Positions 15,154-23,008 of a stretch of 49,576 nucleotides of DNA are shown here, one piece after another. The stretch's first letter is position 1, and every line of letters begins with the position of its first letter. The stretch comes from Granulicoccus phenolivorans DSM 17626 = NBRC 107789 = JCM 15570 (lineage in GTDB: Bacteria > Actinomycetota > Actinomycetes > Propionibacteriales > Propionibacteriaceae): positions 1 to 49,576 of the forward strand of contig NZ_AUHH01000032.1 in NCBI RefSeq assembly GCF_000423085.1. Direction: 5' to 3'. Below the pieces are notes generated by a model. The model made no database searches and had not been told where the DNA came from. It worked only from the letters and a program-made list of their open reading frames with translations. The position numbers and the translations under genes were made by a program.

Positions 15154-16251
15154 TCAGGCGGCGCGTTCGATCGGGCCGAGCCAGGGTTCCAGCCCGTCCC
15201 AGATCTCTTCCCAGACCTGACCCCGGGTGGCGATCTCGGTGTCGGTGAGCAGGCAGCGATGGAACGCGGCCTCGATCTCCCGGTGCCCGTCGTCGCCGGC
15301 CAGCCCGACCACCGTGATCCGGGTCTGCCGGCGCGCGGCACCCCAGTTCTGGGTGGAGCCGACACTGGCCTGGCCGCCGGCGCTGTCCCACGCGCAGATC
15401 GCGTCGGGCCGGGTGGGCAACCAGAAGCAGCCCCGGGCGCGCCGCGGTCCGGAGCCGAGGGTCTCGATCTCCTCGTACAGCCGGCCGGGGTGGAAGGGCC
15501 GGTCGGAGTGGAGGTCGAGGCGCCACACGCCGGCCTCCGGCAGCGGCGGGAGCGGGCCCACGCGTACCTCGTCGATCCAGCCCTCCGACGCCCGGGACCG
15601 GTGTACGCCGGCGGCCAGCGCGGGCGCATCCAGCAGGCACGGATCGGCGACCAGTGGGACGCGCGGGCGCGCCAGGGCGGTGAGCAGGGCCAGTTCGTCG
15701 TGCTCGGGCAGCTGGGTGAGACAGACCACGTCGGCGTACTCCACCATCGCGGTCGCCACCTCGGCGACGCCGCGGTCATCATCGACGGCGGTGGCCAGGC
15801 CGCGTTCCCCGAGCGCCTCGTCCCCGAGCAGATCCTCGCTGATCGTGGCCCCGTCCAGCGCGGTCACCACCGCGGCGACCGTCACATGCGGGGCGTTGCC
15901 GGGAGCCCAGGACAGCACCCGGCAGACCTGGTTCGCCTCCGCGGTGACCGGCAGGCAGGCCACGATGCTGGTCCACTTTCCCTGCGCGGCCAGTCGCTCC
16001 AGGGTCGGCACGATGTCCTCCCGGATGGCGCAGGTGATGCAGGTGTGGGCGAGGTTGATCTCCTCGTGCTCGATCACCCCGGTGATGTCGCCGACCACAC
16101 GGGTCAGAATCTCCCGCTCGGCATCGATGGTGTGCATCACGCCGACGGCGCCGGGCAGCCCGAGCTGCAGCGAGATGCTGGCCGAGGCCACCGCGCCCTC
16201 CTGGATGCCGCTGATCAGGATCACCGGCACCTGACGACGCCCCACCTTCAT
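15154..16251 (-). CDS. mrf: Mrf-like COG0523/CobW-family protein with degenerate P-loop
   Basis: A 365-residue protein of the CobW/COG0523 family by overall layout: a short beta-strand (PVILISG), a loop, a CxxC at residues 71-74 in the position of the family GCxCC metal motif, and a CobW C-terminal domain with [10 protein letters not shown] and CFWLPTRPD. The Walker A is not functional in appearance: GIQEGAVAS (15-23) replaces GxxGxGKT. Mycobacterial Mrf (Rv0106 type), which recruits the hibernation factor MPY to C-minus ribosomes in low zinc, has the same feature, and the neighbours are C-minus ribosomal genes. I therefore infer an Mrf-like role rather than a GTPase zinc chaperone. GGAGG precedes the ATG; its start overlaps the stop of a 17-codon upstream frame. 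Confidence 0.78.
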
Positions 16252-16301
16252 CGCGCCTCCTTGCGGCCGGCACCGTAACGGCGATGGACGGTTTGCTTCA
16301 T
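16248..16301 (-). CDS. possible 17-residue leader peptide upstream of mrf
   Basis: A 17-codon frame with ATG at 16301 and GGGAG nine bases upstream. It encodes a very basic peptide ([17 protein letters not shown]). Its TGA overlaps the mrf ATG as ATGA, which is the usual geometry of translational coupling. It lies inside the Zur-controlled transcript. It could be a small protein, a coupling leader or chance; no similarity is recognised. Confidence 0.3.
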   Translation of the reverse strand: MKQTVHRRYGAGRKEAR

Positions 16302-16325
16302 CGTGAAACTCCCTGCAGACTATTG

Positions 16326-16342
16326 AGAATGATTGTCATTCT
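16326..16342. promoter_or_regulatory. Zur-like operator between mrf and rpmB2
   Basis: A perfect 17-bp palindrome, AGAATGA-TTG-TCATTCT, lies in the divergent gap. It matches the shape and composition of actinobacterial Zur boxes (AAATGA..TCATTT type). It ends 15 bp before the rpmB2 ATG and lies 74 bp from the mrf ATG, so a repressor bound here would cover both promoters and respond to zinc. Confidence 0.85.
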
Positions 16343-16357
16343 AAACGAAGGGACGCC

Positions 16358-16594
16358 ATGTCACGCAAATGTCAGGTGACCGGAGCCGAACCGGCGTTCG
16401 GCAACGCGGTCTCCCACTCCCATCGACGCACCCGCCGGCGGTGGAACGTGAATGTGCAGAGCAAGCGGTACTGGGTGCCGTCGCTGGGCCGCAACGTCAC
16501 GCTGCAGGTCAGTGCGCGCGGGATCAAGACCATCGACCAGCGCGGCATCGAGGCCGTGGTCCGGGATCTGCAGGGTCGCGGGGTGAAGCTCTGA
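16358..16594 (+). CDS. rpmB2: ribosomal protein L28, zinc-independent paralogue
   Basis: A 78-residue L28 of the E. coli-like type (MSRKCQVTG..., then [16 protein letters not shown]-like region and a C-terminal [11 protein letters not shown]). Only one Cys (residue 5) is present, so the CxxC pairs of zinc-binding L28 are missing. It is the first gene of a tight three-gene operon with a very short leader behind the Zur-like palindrome; AAGGGA is the ribosome binding site. The stop overlaps the rpmG2 start (TGATG). Confidence 0.94.
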
Positions 16595-16764
16595 TGGCGA
16601 AAAAGGGTTCGGAGGTCCGGCCGATCATCAAGCTCCGCTCCTCGGCGGGGACCGGCTACACCTACGTCACCAAGAAGAACCGGCGCAACGATCCGGACCG
16701 GTTGGTGCTGCGCAAGTACGACCCGGTCGTACGCCGACACGTGGAATTCAAGGAGCAACGCTGA
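16594..16764 (+). CDS. rpmG2: ribosomal protein L33, zinc-independent paralogue
   Basis: A 56-residue L33 ([20 protein letters not shown] at the N-terminus, [14 protein letters not shown] core) with no cysteines; the two CxxC motifs of zinc-type L33 are absent. Both junctions are TGATG overlaps, so translation is coupled to rpmB2 upstream and rpsN2 downstream. Confidence 0.95.
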
Positions 16765-17069
16765 TGGCCAAGAAGTCGAAGATCGTCGCCAACCAGAAGC
16801 GACAGGTCCTGGTCGAGCGCTATCGGGAACGCCGCGCCGAGCTGCGGGCCGCCGCCCGGGACACCTCGCTGGATCTGGCGGACCGGATGGCAGCCGGCCG
16901 GGCACTGGCGAAGCTGCCGCGGGATTCCTCCCCCAGCCGGGTCCGCAACCGCGACCAGGTGGACGGGCGGCCCCGGGCGTACCTGCGCAAGGCCGGCCTC
17001 TCCCGGGTGAACTTCCGGGAAGCCGCACACCGGGGGGATCTGCCGGGAATCACCAAGTCGAGCTGGTGA
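16764..17069 (+). CDS. rpsN2: ribosomal protein S14, zinc-independent paralogue
   Basis: A 101-residue S14 of the long, cysteine-free type; zinc-binding S14 is about 61 residues with CxxC pairs. The C-terminal signature [20 protein letters not shown] is intact. It ends the rpmB2-rpmG2-rpsN2 operon. Under zinc starvation these proteins replace the zinc-binding versions on the ribosome. Confidence 0.95.
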
Positions 17070-18083: not shown

Positions 18084-20315
18084 GTGGCCGGCGACGCCGA
18101 GATTCTGTTCGGACGCCAGGAGGACCTGGCAACCGTGACCCGGCTGTTGGAGTCTTCGCGCCTGGTGACGATCACCGGGCCGGGCGGAATCGGCAAGACC
18201 AGCCTTGCCGTCCGGATCACCGAACACCTCCGGCCGACCGTGGTCGATCTGACCGCCATTCACTCCGCCGGCGAGGTCGCCGCGCAGATCGCGCGGACCC
18301 TCGGCGTCTCGGAGAGTTCGGCCCGGCCACCCCAGGAGCAGGTAGCGCGCCATCTCGGTGCCGCCCCGGCGCTGTTGTTGCTGGACAACTGCGAACACGT
18401 GGCCGACGGAGTGGCCGATTTCCTCACCGCTGTCCTGCCCAAGTGCTCGGGGTTGCGCGTACTGACGACCAGCACCGTGGTTCTGGAGGTCCGCGGCGAA
18501 CAGGTCTATGAGCTCCCGCCGCTGTCGGTGCCGGCGCCGACCGATGACTTCGCCCGCATCCTGGAACATGCCTCGGTGCAGGTGCTGATCGCGCGTACGC
18601 GGGCGGTTGCCCCCGGCTTCGAGGTGACCGAGGAGAACTGTCAGCAGGTCGCTGAATTGTGTCGTCGCCTGGACGGCATGCCGCTGGCGGTGGAACTGGC
18701 CGCCATCCGGCTCCGCGTCCTCTCGGTCGACGAGTTGACCAAGCGGCTGGACCACCGCTTCGCCCTGCTGAATCACGGCAACCGGAACGCCCCCGATCGA
18801 CACCGGACCCTGCGCGCCCTGGTCGCCTGGAGTTTCGAACGCTGCAGCCCGGCCGAGCGGCTGCTGTGGGCCCGCCTCTCGGTGTTCCGGGGCAGCTTTT
18901 CCCTGGACGCCGCCGAGCACGTGTGCACATCCCCGGACGTAGCGCCCGAGGACATCCTCGATGTCATCGATGGCTTGGTGGCGAAGTCGGTCCTGGTCGT
19001 GGACCGGGCCACCCGGGGCCAGGTCCGCTATCGGCAGTTGGCGACCATCCGCGACTACGGCACCGAGCTGCTGACCGAGCGCGGTGAACGGGCCATGGTG
19101 CACGACCGGCTGTTGGAATTCTGCCTGGACCGCGCCGATCAGCGAGTGGCGAGCTGGTGCAGCGACAGCCAGGCCACCTCACTGCGCACCTGGCGGGTGG
19201 AACACCCCACCATCCTGGCCGCCTTCGAATGGGCGATGGAAGATCCGTCCCGCCACAACCAGGCGGCAGAACTGATGGTGCAGCTTCGCTACCACTGGAT
19301 CGCCGGCGGACAGCTGAGCGACGGCCGTCGCTGGGCCGATCGGATCCTGAACACCGCCGAACTCCCCGCGGTCCAGCGCGGCCACGTGCTCGCGGTGGCC
19401 GCCTGGATCGCGCTGATCCAGGGGGACCGGGAGTCCGCCCGGGCGTACCTCGACGAGGCCGAACCCCTGCGCGCCGCGACCGGAGACGAGTTCCTCGGCG
19501 CCCGGCTCGAGGCCTGGACCGGTCTGCTGCTGCTGTTCAGCGGGCAGGTGGAGGCGGCAGTCGACACGTACGCCCGGGCGATCCCGGTGCTGTCGGCGCA
19601 CGGGGACGACGGGTCGGCACAGATGGCGACCTTCCAGATGGCGATGGCACAGGTCTACAGCGACCGGCTCGATGATGCCCTGGCCACCTGCCGGGACCAG
19701 ATCGCGTGGTGCCGGTCAACCGGTGAGCAGTGGGATCTGGCGTACGCGCTGTGGGTGCAGGGCATCGCCCTGTGGCGCCGCGGCGAATCGGACGCCGCCC
19801 GAACCAGCGCCCGGCAGGCGCTGCAGATCCAGGAGTCCTTCGAGGACGGCATCTGTATCGCCCTGGTCCTGCTCCTGCTGACCTGGATCATGGGCAAGCG
19901 GTCCCCGCAGTCGCGGCAACTGTCCTGTGCCGCCGATCGGGTGTGGCAGATCCTGGGCACCTCGGCGGCCGCCTTCGGGCCGCACCTGCACCGGCATCAT
20001 CAGCAGTTCACTCCCCCGCCGCTGACCGGCGGCACGCCACCCCGGACCCGCGGCGAGGCCGTCACGCTCGGGCTCGCGCTCAGCGAACCGACCTCGGCCA
20101 AGGCTGCTAGCAATCTCACGGCCCGGGAGGAGCAGGTGCTGACCCACTTGGTCGAGGGCCGCAGTAACCGGGAGATCGCCGCCGAGCTCGTCCTTAGCCC
20201 GCGTACGGTCGAGGGCCACGTCGAGAACGTGCTGGCCAAACTGCATCTGCGCTCCCGCGCCGAGGTACCGGCGTGGTTCGTCCGGCATCGCGATCCGGGG
20301 GCCGTAGTCACGTAG
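18084..20315 (+). CDS. large NB-ARC/LuxR-type transcriptional regulator
   Basis: A 743-residue regulator. Walker A (GPGGIGKTS) is at residues 32-40, Walker B (LLLLDNCEHV) is near 97, and a GMPLAVELAA helix, diagnostic of NB-ARC/AfsR-like STAND ATPases, is near 200. The middle, about 330-640, is helical and TPR-like. The last 65 residues are a LuxR DNA-binding domain (LTAREEQVLTHLVEGRSNRE, then SPRTVEGHVENVLAKL). Such proteins oligomerise with ATP when a ligand binds and activate nearby operons. The GTG start has AGGA upstream. The fused monooxygenase-esterase gene begins 83 bp downstream on the same strand and is the obvious candidate target. Confidence 0.88.
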   Translation: MAGDAEILFGRQEDLATVTRLLESSRLVTITGPGGIGKTSLAVRITEHLRPTVVDLTAIHSAGEVAAQIARTLGVSESSARPPQEQVARHLGAAPALLLLDNCEHVADGVADFLTAVLPKCSGLRVLTTSTVVLEVRGEQVYELPPLSVPAPTDDFARILEHASVQVLIARTRAVAPGFEVTEENCQQVAELCRRLDGMPLAVELAAIRLRVLSVDELTKRLDHRFALLNHGNRNAPDRHRTLRALVAWSFERCSPAERLLWARLSVFRGSFSLDAAEHVCTSPDVAPEDILDVIDGLVAKSVLVVDRATRGQVRYRQLATIRDYGTELLTERGERAMVHDRLLEFCLDRADQRVASWCSDSQATSLRTWRVEHPTILAAFEWAMEDPSRHNQAAELMVQLRYHWIAGGQLSDGRRWADRILNTAELPAVQRGHVLAVAAWIALIQGDRESARAYLDEAEPLRAATGDEFLGARLEAWTGLLLLFSGQVEAAVDTYARAIPVLSAHGDDGSAQMATFQMAMAQVYSDRLDDALATCRDQIAWCRSTGEQWDLAYALWVQGIALWRRGESDAARTSARQALQIQESFEDGICIALVLLLLTWIMGKRSPQSRQLSCAADRVWQILGTSAAAFGPHLHRHHQQFTPPPLTGGTPPRTRGEAVTLGLALSEPTSAKAASNLTAREEQVLTHLVEGRSNREIAAELVLSPRTVEGHVENVLAKLHLRSRAEVPAWFVRHRDPGAVVT

Positions 20316-20398
20316 ATCTACGGGGGTGCCCGACGCTCCCCGCTCAGCACACTGGGGTGACCCGAATCACGACAGAGTCGTCGCGAAGGAGACTCCCC

Positions 20399-23008
20399 AT
20401 GAGCAACAGCGATCCGAGCACCACGGACACCATCGCCCCCGATGTCGATGTCATCATCATCGGCAGCGGATTTGCCGGCATCTACGCTATCCACAAGTTC
20501 CGCGACCAGATGGGACTGACCGTCCAGGCCTTCGATGCCGCCAGCGATGTCGGCGGCACGTGGTACTGGAACCGCTATCCCGGCGCCCGGGTGGACATCG
20601 AGAGTGTCCACTACTCCTACTCCTTCGACGAGGACCTGCAGCAGGAGTGGCAGTGGAGCGAGCGCTTCGCCGCCGGCCCGGAGATCCTGCGCTACCTGAA
20701 TCACTGCGCCGACCGGTTCGACATTCGCCGCAGCGTGAAGTTCAACACCCGGATCACCGATGCCGCGTGGGACGACGAGCGCAATCACTGGGTGATCCGT
20801 ACCGATCAGGGGGACACGATCACCGGCCGCCACTTCGTCTCCGGCGCCGGCACCCTGTCGGTGCCGAAGGTGCCCGACTTCCCCGGGGTCGAGGACTTCG
20901 CGGGCCAGACCCTCCTGACCGGAAACTGGCGCGAGGACCATGACCTGACCGGCAAGCGGGTCGGCATCATCGGCGTCGGTTCCACCGGCATCCAGGCGAT
21001 CAGCGAAATCTCCAAGGTCGCCGGTGACCTGTTCGTCTTCCAGCGCACCCCCAACTTCGCCACCCCGATCGGCAACTACCCGCTGGCACCGGGCGAGGAG
21101 GACGCCAACAAGGCGCGCTACACCGAGATCCGCGACGCCTCCCGCAACCACTTCCTCGGGGTGCCCTACGACGAGGTCGAACCGTCCGCACTCGCGGTCT
21201 CCCCCGAGCACCGCCGGGCGGTCTACCAGGACCGTTGGGACAAGGGCGGCTTCCGGCTGTTCATCGACAGCTTCACCGACGTGCTGCTCGACAAGGAGGC
21301 CAACGACACCGCCGCCGACTTCATCCGGGACAAGATCCGCGATCGGGTCAAGGATCCGAAGACCGCCGAACTGCTCTGCCCGACCGGCTATCCGTACGCC
21401 ACCAAGCGGCCCCCGCTGGAGACCGACTACTACGAGGCGTACAACCGGGAGAGCACCCACCTGATCGACGTGAAGAGCAATCCGATCGACCGGGTCACCG
21501 CCGCGGGCGTACGCCTGGCCGACGGCACCGAGTACGAACTCGACGTTCTCATCCTGGCCACCGGGTTCGACGCCTGCACCGGACCGATGCTGGCGATCAA
21601 CCCGAAGGGCCGCGCCGGGCACACCCTCAAGGAGACCTGGGCCGACGGGCCGCAGACCTACTTGGGCCTCACCGTCCACGGGTTCCCGAACCTCTACCTG
21701 ATCACCGGTCCGCAGAGCCCGTCGGTGCTCTACAACATGCCGCTGGCGATCGAGGATCACGTCGACTACATCGCCGACATCCTCACCTGGATGGACCAGC
21801 ATGGCCACACCGTCATCGAGCCGAGCGTCCAGGCGCAGGAGCAGTGGGTCCAGGAGACCACGGCGATGTCGGAGATGACGCTGCTGCCGACCTCCCCGAG
21901 CAGCTGGTACATGGGCGCCAACATCCCGGGCAAGCCGCGCCGGGTGCTGGTCTACCTCGGCGGCGCGCCCCGCTATCGAGCGATCTGCGACAACGTCAAG
22001 GAGAACGGCTTCCGCGGCTTCCATGCCGCGAACTCGACCGCCGAGGTGACCGGGGCCCCGATGAGTCCGGCCCTCGACCCCGCCGAATGCTTCATCGTCG
22101 AGGCGCTGAAGCAGCAGAGGTTCGCCGGGTTCCGAGCCGCCGGCGTGGAGACCTCCCGGGCAGTGATCGAGTCGTTCGTCGGGATGCAGGCGCCGGCTCC
22201 GGAGGTCGCCCAGGTTTCCGAACACGCGTACGGTGACGACCCCGAGCAGCGGCTGCGGATCTACACCCCCGCCGGTGAAGGACCCTTCCCGGTGCTCGTC
22301 TATGTCCACGGGGGCGGCTTCGTCGGCGGCAGCCTCGACGTGGTGAACGAACCCGCCCGGGACCTGGCCGTACGCTCCGGCGCGATCATCGTCACCCCGA
22401 CCTACCGGCGCGCCCCCGAGCACCGCTTCCCCGCCGCCCACGACGACGCCTATGCCGCCCTGCAGTGGACCGCCGAGCACATCGCCGAGCACGGCGGCGA
22501 TCCGGCGCGTATCGCGGTCGCCGGCGACTCCGCCGGTGGCTCCCTGGCCCTGGCGGCCGCCCACCGGGCCTCGGTGGAAGGTCCGGCGCTGTCGGCGCTG
22601 ACGCTGATCTATCCGCTGGTCAGCGTCGCCGGGCAGACCGCGTCCCGGGAGGAGTTCGCCACCGGCTACGTCATCGAACTCGATGATCTGGTGTGGTTCG
22701 GCGAGCAGTATCTGAACGGCCCCGAGGATGCGACCGATCCGCGGCTGGCTCCCGAGCGGGCCGACCTGTCGGGCCTGCCGCCCACGCTGATCCTGACCAA
22801 CGAGTGCGACACCCTGCGTGATGAGGCCGAGGACCTGGCCGAGCGTCTCGCGGCCGAGGGCGTCGACGCCCGATTCCAGCGCTTCGACGGCTTGGCCCAC
22901 GGTGCGTTCTGGCAGTCCCTGGCGGTTTCCCGGTGCGCCGAACAGCGCCTCGCGGTCGCCGAATTCATCCGGGCCCGGCTCGGTGCGCGGACTCCGCAGC
23001 CGGCCTGA
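20399..23008 (+). CDS. Baeyer-Villiger-type flavin monooxygenase fused to an HSL-family esterase
   Basis: An 869-residue fusion. Residues 1-545 form a class B flavoprotein monooxygenase: FAD loop GSGFAG (22-27), the GGTWYWNRYPGARVD signature, the NADPH loop GVGSTG, and the late ATGFD. The Baeyer-Villiger fingerprint FxGxxxHxxxW appears at 167-177 as FAGQTLLTGNW, so Leu173 replaces His. Residues from about 600 form a hormone-sensitive-lipase-type esterase with HGGGF (637-641), GDSAGG with Ser711, Asp804 and His834, an intact triad. Coupled oxidation of a ketone to an ester or lactone and its hydrolysis is the natural inference. The ATG at 20399 has AAGGAG upstream. The LuxR-type gene precedes it. 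The substrate is unknown. Confidence 0.9.
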   Translation: MSNSDPSTTDTIAPDVDVIIIGSGFAGIYAIHKFRDQMGLTVQAFDAASDVGGTWYWNRYPGARVDIESVHYSYSFDEDLQQEWQWSERFAAGPEILRYLNHCADRFDIRRSVKFNTRITDAAWDDERNHWVIRTDQGDTITGRHFVSGAGTLSVPKVPDFPGVEDFAGQTLLTGNWREDHDLTGKRVGIIGVGSTGIQAISEISKVAGDLFVFQRTPNFATPIGNYPLAPGEEDANKARYTEIRDASRNHFLGVPYDEVEPSALAVSPEHRRAVYQDRWDKGGFRLFIDSFTDVLLDKEANDTAADFIRDKIRDRVKDPKTAELLCPTGYPYATKRPPLETDYYEAYNRESTHLIDVKSNPIDRVTAAGVRLADGTEYELDVLILATGFDACTGPMLAINPKGRAGHTLKETWADGPQTYLGLTVHGFPNLYLITGPQSPSVLYNMPLAIEDHVDYIADILTWMDQHGHTVIEPSVQAQEQWVQETTAMSEMTLLPTSPSSWYMGANIPGKPRRVLVYLGGAPRYRAICDNVKENGFRGFHAANSTAEVTGAPMSPALDPAECFIVEALKQQRFAGFRAAGVETSRAVIESFVGMQAPAPEVAQVSEHAYGDDPEQRLRIYTPAGEGPFPVLVYVHGGGFVGGSLDVVNEPARDLAVRSGAIIVTPTYRRAPEHRFPAAHDDAYAALQWTAEHIAEHGGDPARIAVAGDSAGGSLALAAAHRASVEGPALSALTLIYPLVSVAGQTASREEFATGYVIELDDLVWFGEQYLNGPEDATDPRLAPERADLSGLPPTLILTNECDTLRDEAEDLAERLAAEGVDARFQRFDGLAHGAFWQSLAVSRCAEQRLAVAEFIRARLGARTPQPA

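Follow-up and report, generated by a model that had tools for sequence, protein, structure and literature searches.

The analysed stretch (hereafter the window) comprises positions 1 to 49,576 of contig NZ_AUHH01000032.1 from Granulicoccus phenolivorans DSM 17626, 49,576 nucleotides (nt) in all. On its forward strand, positions 20399-23008 form a single uninterrupted frame of 869 codons in which a Baeyer-Villiger monooxygenase (BVMO) is joined to a serine esterase of the hormone-sensitive lipase (HSL) type. The features of this fused gene, with the evidence for each, are listed below.

20386..20391, forward strand: Shine-Dalgarno-like AAGGAG, 7 nt before the ATG of the fused gene (sequence)
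20399..23008, forward strand: fused BVMO-HSL esterase gene (translation; Pfam, NCBIfam and PDB matches; unbroken homologues elsewhere)
20438..22021, forward strand: BVMO domain, residues 14-541, similar to phenylacetone monooxygenase, PAMO (phmmer to 1w4x, E 1.1e-173)
20594..20596, forward strand: Asp66, equivalent to PAMO Asp66 (D in 159/160 aligned BVMOs, one X)
20897..20929, forward strand: degenerate fingerprint FAGQTLLTGNW, residues 167-177, with Leu173 at 20915-20917 (alignment to PAMO)
21407..21409, forward strand: Arg337, PAMO Arg337 (R in 160/160 aligned BVMOs)
22022..22093, forward strand: linker, residues 542-565, holding LDP (junction alignment and unfused esterase starts; predicted local distance difference test, pLDDT, below 50 from 547)
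22094..22981, forward strand: HSL-type alpha/beta-hydrolase domain, residues 566-861 (PF07859, Abhydrolase_3, 633-836, E 2e-64)
22529..22531, forward strand: catalytic Ser711 in GDSAGG, which starts at 709 (S in 88/90 aligned esterases, two gaps)
22808..22810, forward strand: catalytic Asp804 (D in 62/90 and E in 26/90 aligned esterases, two gaps)
22898..22900, forward strand: catalytic His834 (H in 87/90 aligned esterases, three gaps)

The first-pass annotation of this DNA had described an 869-residue protein with a BVMO and a hydrolase carrying the triad Ser711/Asp804/His834, and translation, profile matches and alignment bear this description out. The BVMO domain is 49% identical to PAMO over aligned columns, the numbering of the two proteins coincides at 66, 173 and 337, and the Pfam FMO-like match has an E value of 1.9e-13. 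GSGFAG was observed at residues 22-27 and GVGSTG downstream of the fingerprint, while the motif [A/G]GxWxxxx[F/Y]P[G/M]xxxD is present as GGTWYWNRYPGARVD, with Asp66. Lys336 is conserved in 158 of the 160 aligned BVMOs and is followed by Arg337, which we take to be the catalytic arginine in PAMO. Full-length homology to 1w4x together with this arginine places the domain among the type I (class B) BVMOs. PAMO thus shares Asp66, Lys336 and Arg337 with the fused protein but carries His in the fingerprint and has no hydrolase attached.

The C-terminal half carries the marks of an HSL (Abhydrolase_3) esterase, namely an HGG oxyanion motif at 637, the GDSAG nucleophile elbow and the Ser-Asp-His triad. 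HSL carboxylesterases were matched by phmmer to stretches within residues 552-858. The best NCBIfam esterase profile was that of the LipP1 family of hormone-sensitive lipases (NF058653, 285 bits), from which this domain differs in scoring under the family cut-off of 350 and in being part of a fusion. Among the 31 fused esterases collected, Ser-Asp-His is present in 29, the remaining two having alignment gaps.

These homologues were gathered by searches with the window protein, and the fractions given here are not population frequencies. The 178 loci obtained were reduced to 160 distinct BVMO rows. Left out by name were L005, L006, L007, L009, L010, L041, L045, L049 and L175 (the frameshifted G061 gene and rows that were short, distant or duplicates), together with identical segments and BVMO hits shorter than 420 residues or below 330 bits (e.g. 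L058, a contig-end copy). Thirty-one of the 160 rows are fused (27 BVMO-esterase, 4 esterase-BVMO), and in 59 an esterase gene lies no more than 2.5 kb away (order BVMO-esterase in 45, reversed in 11, esterase on the other strand in 3). The other 70 have no nearby esterase gene, although nine of them had less than 900 nt of flank on a side.

Gene families were compared in 35 neighbourhoods: 18 belong to the clade of the window gene, with the pair fused in 8 and unfused in 10, and 17 lie outside it. Flank lengths vary between loci, and gene absence is weak evidence. An HpaB-type two-component phenol hydroxylase was identified in the flank of 8 of the 18 clade loci (L011, L013, L014, L015, L017, L018, L183 and L185), accompanied in all eight by a flavin reductase and a PcaR/IclR-type regulator. 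The clade hydroxylases are 70-83% identical to that of L183, and the 17 other loci yielded one (L080, Bradyrhizobium, 63%). FAD synthetase was found at 6/18 clade loci and catechol 1,2-dioxygenase at 5/18, one of them partial. By family models, the fused locus L183 encodes HpaB, a flavin reductase, a PcaR-type regulator and a catechol 1,2-dioxygenase just under the TIGR02438 cut-off. At the fused locus L185, HpaB and a muconate cycloisomerase-type protein stand with a TIGR02438 match of 408.4 against a cut-off of 404.4. Judged from their sequences, the clade's neighbours are those of a predicted route from ketone through aryl ester, phenol and catechol to muconate.

The clade also shares the gene directly upstream of the fusion:

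18084..20315, forward strand: LuxR-type protein, probably the local regulator, with TPR and STAND-like ATPase regions (GerE/LuxR PF00196, E 4e-18)

This gene lies 83 nt from the fused gene in the same direction, and a homologue occurs at 17 of the 18 clade loci (7/8 fused, 10/10 unfused) versus 1/17 others (L186). It had been called an NB-ARC/LuxR regulator; the LuxR half of that name stands, with GerE/LuxR over its cut-off, but NB-ARC falls under its own (E 7e-4).

A BVMO followed by an esterase is a known catabolic arrangement. In Pseudomonas fluorescens ACB, the two act consecutively on 4-hydroxyacetophenone as separate proteins, and the BVMO belongs to another subfamily. The ACB pathway is named as analogous to that of Rhodococcus rhodochrous GD02 (PMC9618137). 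In GD02, acpAB, encoding a PAMO homologue (55%) and an esterase, was the most induced set on acetophenone (>4,000-fold), pheAB and catABC were also up, and the authors suggest conversion of acetophenone to phenyl acetate and then to phenol and acetate (PMC9618137). Rhodococcus jostii RHA1 carries acpAB and grows on acetophenone, and the pathway is traced to a 1975 Arthrobacter study (PMC9618137).

The fused gene couples a PAMO-like BVMO to an HSL-type esterase, as AcpA and AcpB are coupled in GD02 (PMC9618137). The phenol hydroxylase and cat genes co-induced in GD02 lie here beside some unfused and fused relatives. The GD02 enzymes differ in being encoded by two genes rather than one, and the words "fusion" and "fused" are absent from the main text of that report (PMC9618137). 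We therefore propose, with a probability of about 0.65, that the fused gene encodes a bifunctional AcpA-AcpB-type enzyme, converting an aryl alkyl ketone into an aryl ester and this into a phenol and an acid. With FAD and NADPH, the N-terminal domain would insert oxygen into an acetophenone-like ketone, and the C-terminal serine esterase would cleave the resulting aryl ester to a phenol and a short acid. Fusion would supply both activities in equal amounts and remove the ester quickly, and the adjacent LuxR/STAND protein probably controls the gene. The reactions and their substrate, like the regulation and the advantage of fusion, are inferred; what the sequences show directly is that both domains are complete, in which order they stand, that they are conserved, and that sister lineages have two-gene operons. 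That the two domains perform consecutive steps had been suggested before, and the context agrees, with BVMO and esterase genes adjacent in unfused relatives and such a pair assigned to the acetophenone route in GD02 (PMC9618137). The unfused pairs of the clade, by analogy, probably break down acetophenone-like compounds.

Several points weigh against this assignment. The GD02 acetophenone monooxygenase itself still needs expression and characterisation (PMC9618137), and the orthology of the fused gene to GD02 AcpA/AcpB is presumed. A Rhodococcus gordoniae member of the clade is 54% identical to PAMO; a BVMO-esterase pair of N. farcinica that has the fingerprint His (L081) is equally close (54-55%), and the 55% figure for AcpA is therefore undecisive. 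No phe/cat genes lie near the fused gene within the window. In a search limited to the HpaB type of phenol hydroxylase, the host genome gave no HpaB_N match above the cut-off, and its intradiol dioxygenase match, although over cut-off, is weak and partial (37.7 bits, profile 24-98 of 182). With these two profiles, the phenol hydroxylase and catechol branch expected beside an AcpAB-type enzyme was not found in the host. HpaB over cut-off is likewise absent from G043, G217 and G284, fused-gene genomes of the host's family, and HpaB_N over cut-off from the fused-lineage genomes G061, G324, G704 and G1160, while 5 of 12 further fused-lineage genomes have it (G342, G311, G211, G201 and G1015). Since the host and its three family relatives lack HpaB over cut-off and no phe/cat genes lie nearby, phenol may not be degraded in the host, or the substrate may differ.

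These same absences favour a different ketone (aliphatic, cyclic, or a terpenoid or steroid), handled by the same logic of ketone, ester and hydrolysis, with the gene retuned from acetophenone in the window's family. We regard this as the less likely course, at perhaps one chance in four: the clade and the regulator are common to loci with phe/cat genes, and the HpaB negatives cover no other phenol hydroxylase types.

The fused state changes four times on the FastTree tree and four times on an IQ-TREE tree of 58 of the 160 rows (L112 and L099 left out); support is weak for many inner branches, and the program gave a long-branch warning. Lineage 1, that of the window gene, holds 8 fused rows. 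Lineage 2 also holds 8, including a Bradyrhizobium plasmid gene and two genomes from a search centred on a Sphingomonadales metagenome-assembled genome (MAG). Lineage 3 comprises 11 rows, nine from Actinomycetota searches, one from the Sphingomonadales-MAG-centred search and one from a Luminiphilus-MAG-centred search. Lineage 4 consists of four rows with the esterase first, from a Luminiphilus MAG, a Halieaceae MAG and two genomes of the Sphingomonadales-MAG-centred search. With groups named after the tree had been seen, the approximately unbiased (AU) test rejected a single origin of all fusions in BVMO-esterase order, lineages 1-3 (p 1.9e-8), but did not reject one for lineages 1 and 2 (p 0.055). 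Because of this rejection and the reversed lineage 4, BVMO-esterase fusions appear to have arisen three or more times, one of them with the domain order reversed. On the esterase tree, lineage 3 (11 rows) stands apart, and lineage 4 falls within a 13-row group whose nine other members are eight esterases encoded ahead of a BVMO gene and a single divergent one; this is the picture to be expected had each fusion kept the gene order of the operon it came from.

Some observations concern individual members of these lineages. The fused gene on the Bradyrhizobium plasmid is annotated merely as "alpha/beta hydrolase fold domain-containing protein". The esterase match of the esterase-first fusion in the Halieaceae MAG (L024) is split into two pieces that lie in different frames, which is not so in the closely similar L025. 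At L192:6425-8440 (reverse strand), beside a lineage-2 fused gene, a Polyketide_cyc2 domain is joined to an AMP-binding acyl-CoA ligase, and AMP-binding ligases of its cluster lie near 6/35 loci. A PucR-type regulator was found in six of seven lineage-2 neighbourhoods (L080, L189, L190, L192, L193 and L198), the seventh (L186) having LuxR/STAND.

Alignment to PAMO confirmed the reading of the fingerprint as FAGQTLLTGNW at 167-177, with Leu173 at the position of PAMO His173. Against the strict form FxGxxxHxxxW[P/D], the fused BVMO reads FAGQTLLTGNWR, with Leu for His and Arg for Pro/Asp. The Arg after Trp is a second deviation, absent from the first-pass annotation. The alignment of fused and unfused homologues proposed there showed that deviation at the His is common to both, His being absent in 30 of 31 fused versus 46 of 129 unfused rows. 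L099 is the only fused row that has it, and its replacements in fused rows are Leu, Phe, Tyr, Thr, Gln, Arg, Val, Asn, Ser and Ile.

Within the 51-row clade of lineages 1 and 2, His is absent in 50 rows, including 35/35 unfused, and in the 16-row clade of lineages 3 and 4 it is absent in all 16. Outside both clades it is absent in 10 of 93 rows, none of them fused. Because all 35 unfused clade rows also lack His, Leu at this position is, on the alignment, a trait of the subfamily that predates the fusion of the window gene. Fusion as the cause of His loss was rejected, since an independent-pairs test had only three pairs (supported branches) and was not significant, and the loss came first in the clade.

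The Leu had been taken as a sign of possibly altered oxygenation. In a rival reading, the missing His would mark a monooxygenase without Baeyer-Villiger chemistry (heteroatom oxidation or an NADPH oxidase), with the esterase serving another end. Mutation of the fingerprint His, which is proposed to act in the conformational changes that occur between the FAD site and the NADPH site, lowers efficiency in CHMO and inactivates HAPMO (PMC3762062). BVMOAf1 of Aspergillus fumigatus, with a natural His173Gln, is an active and selective BVMO, and some rhodococcal BVMOs likewise deviate in the fingerprint (PMC3762062). Like the fused protein, BVMOAf1 combines a replaced His with a natural C-terminal fusion (about 360 residues) and an active BVMO part, but its fused domain is named a putative polynucleotide synthase rather than an esterase, and that study also made a form of the enzyme lacking the domain (PMC3762062). 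With Asp66, Lys336 and Arg337 retained here, the last in all 160 rows, and esterase fusion repeated in four lineages, a loss of Baeyer-Villiger chemistry seems improbable. The earlier suspicion keeps the mutant data on its side and is weakened by the 35 unfused His-less rows, the invariant arginine and the activity of BVMOAf1. By itself, the natural Leu would predict neither loss nor change of chemistry.

A search for proteins with both domains in the same order, as had been recommended, returned seven further unbroken homologues at 69-71% identity (Quadrisphaera granulorum, L012 = G1015, and G043, G217, G284, G342, G311 and G211) and an eighth in G201 that is truncated by a contig end; the host genome has one full-length copy. 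Because the same unbroken frame recurs in other genomes, the fusion is confirmed at sequence level as genuine and more than chance. In seven pairs drawn from the window gene and these homologues, dN/dS ranged from 0.085 to 0.40 in the BVMO half and from 0.145 to 0.35 in the esterase half, and both halves are thus, by this estimate, maintained by purifying selection. A further close fused homologue (L175, G061:C13:436965-439560) contains a frameshift inside its BVMO part.

The closest unfused relatives are found in Amycolatopsis, Prauserella, Pseudonocardia, Mycobacterium sp. SM1, Rhodococcus and an Arthrobacter MAG, where the BVMO gene ends in a stop and is followed by the esterase gene. In the seven relatives measured, 10-42 nt separate the BVMO stop from the esterase ATG, and the esterase starts with MP[L/I]DP in six. 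ALDP or ELDP is retained within the variable linker in 8/8 fused rows of lineage 1, the pattern expected if two operon genes, BVMO and then esterase, had fused by losing the stop codon of the first, the start codon of the second and the short gap separating them. This is the proposed course of the fusion. A stop between the domains in homologues had been named earlier as a sign of assembly error; such stops do exist, but as two-gene operons of sister lineages. Assembly or sequencing error as the source of the joined frame can be dismissed as next to impossible: although unfused relatives have a stop at that very point, seven homologues in other genomes share the unbroken frame, the linker lacks gap and start codon, and the window's Met555 is not in the other seven. 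An internal restart at Met555 (GAPMSPALDP) for a separate esterase was also rejected, this Met being confined to the window and absent from the seven other aligned fused sequences, with no well-spaced ribosome site visible by eye. The host's other BVMO (L002, G000:C4:1868-4531) has Arg at the fingerprint His position and is adjoined on the opposite strand by an HSL esterase gene, an unfused pair of another BVMO subfamily.

Channelling between the two sites, which the first-pass annotation had suggested, finds no support. An AlphaFold2 model of the fused protein, computed from 37 sequences, two of them spanning the fusion, has a mean pLDDT of 79 and a predicted template modelling score (pTM) of 0.64. 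The linker between the domains is predicted to be disordered, and because residues 547-600 fall below pLDDT 50, the model is uninformative on the mutual position of the two active sites. The simple advantages of matched dose and proximity suffice to account for the fusion. A broader idea is doubtful: a design selected repeatedly, with at least three fusions in both orders across Actinomycetota, Alpha- and Gammaproteobacteria. Here the His-less BVMOs would form a hydrolase-coupled branch missed by motif mining, the fingerprint would be relaxed since domain motion or the release of product is tuned to the esterase partner, and ester would truly pass between the sites.

Elsewhere in the window, none of six other genes tested recurs at the 34 other loci (tblastn, E <= 1e-15). 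At 15154-17069, a CobW_C-domain protein (reverse strand) lies near a gene for 30S ribosomal protein S14 (16764-17069, forward strand), an arrangement known from sets of zinc-responsive paralogues of ribosomal proteins.

Established already are the logic of the pathway, the pairing of BVMO and esterase genes, and BVMOs that deviate at the His. Among the open-access titles and abstract openings listed, none described a natural fusion of BVMO and esterase, its repeated origin in either order, or its tie to the acetophenone gene set, although these may still have been reported. The sole natural BVMO fusion met in open-access passages was BVMOAf1, with its other domain (PMC3762062). One survey demanded both BVMO fingerprints and observed no clustering by domain architecture (PMC4498894), and another tolerated only F/Y or H/Q changes (PMC3762062); because both demanded the fingerprint, the Leu enzyme would be excluded by either rule. 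A one-protein cascade from ketone to phenol (or alcohol) and acid would serve biocatalysis. The physiological substrates of BVMOs are widely unknown (PMC4498894). Here, the fused esterase would fix the likely next reaction and, together with the phe/cat neighbours of its relatives, points to aryl alkyl ketones.

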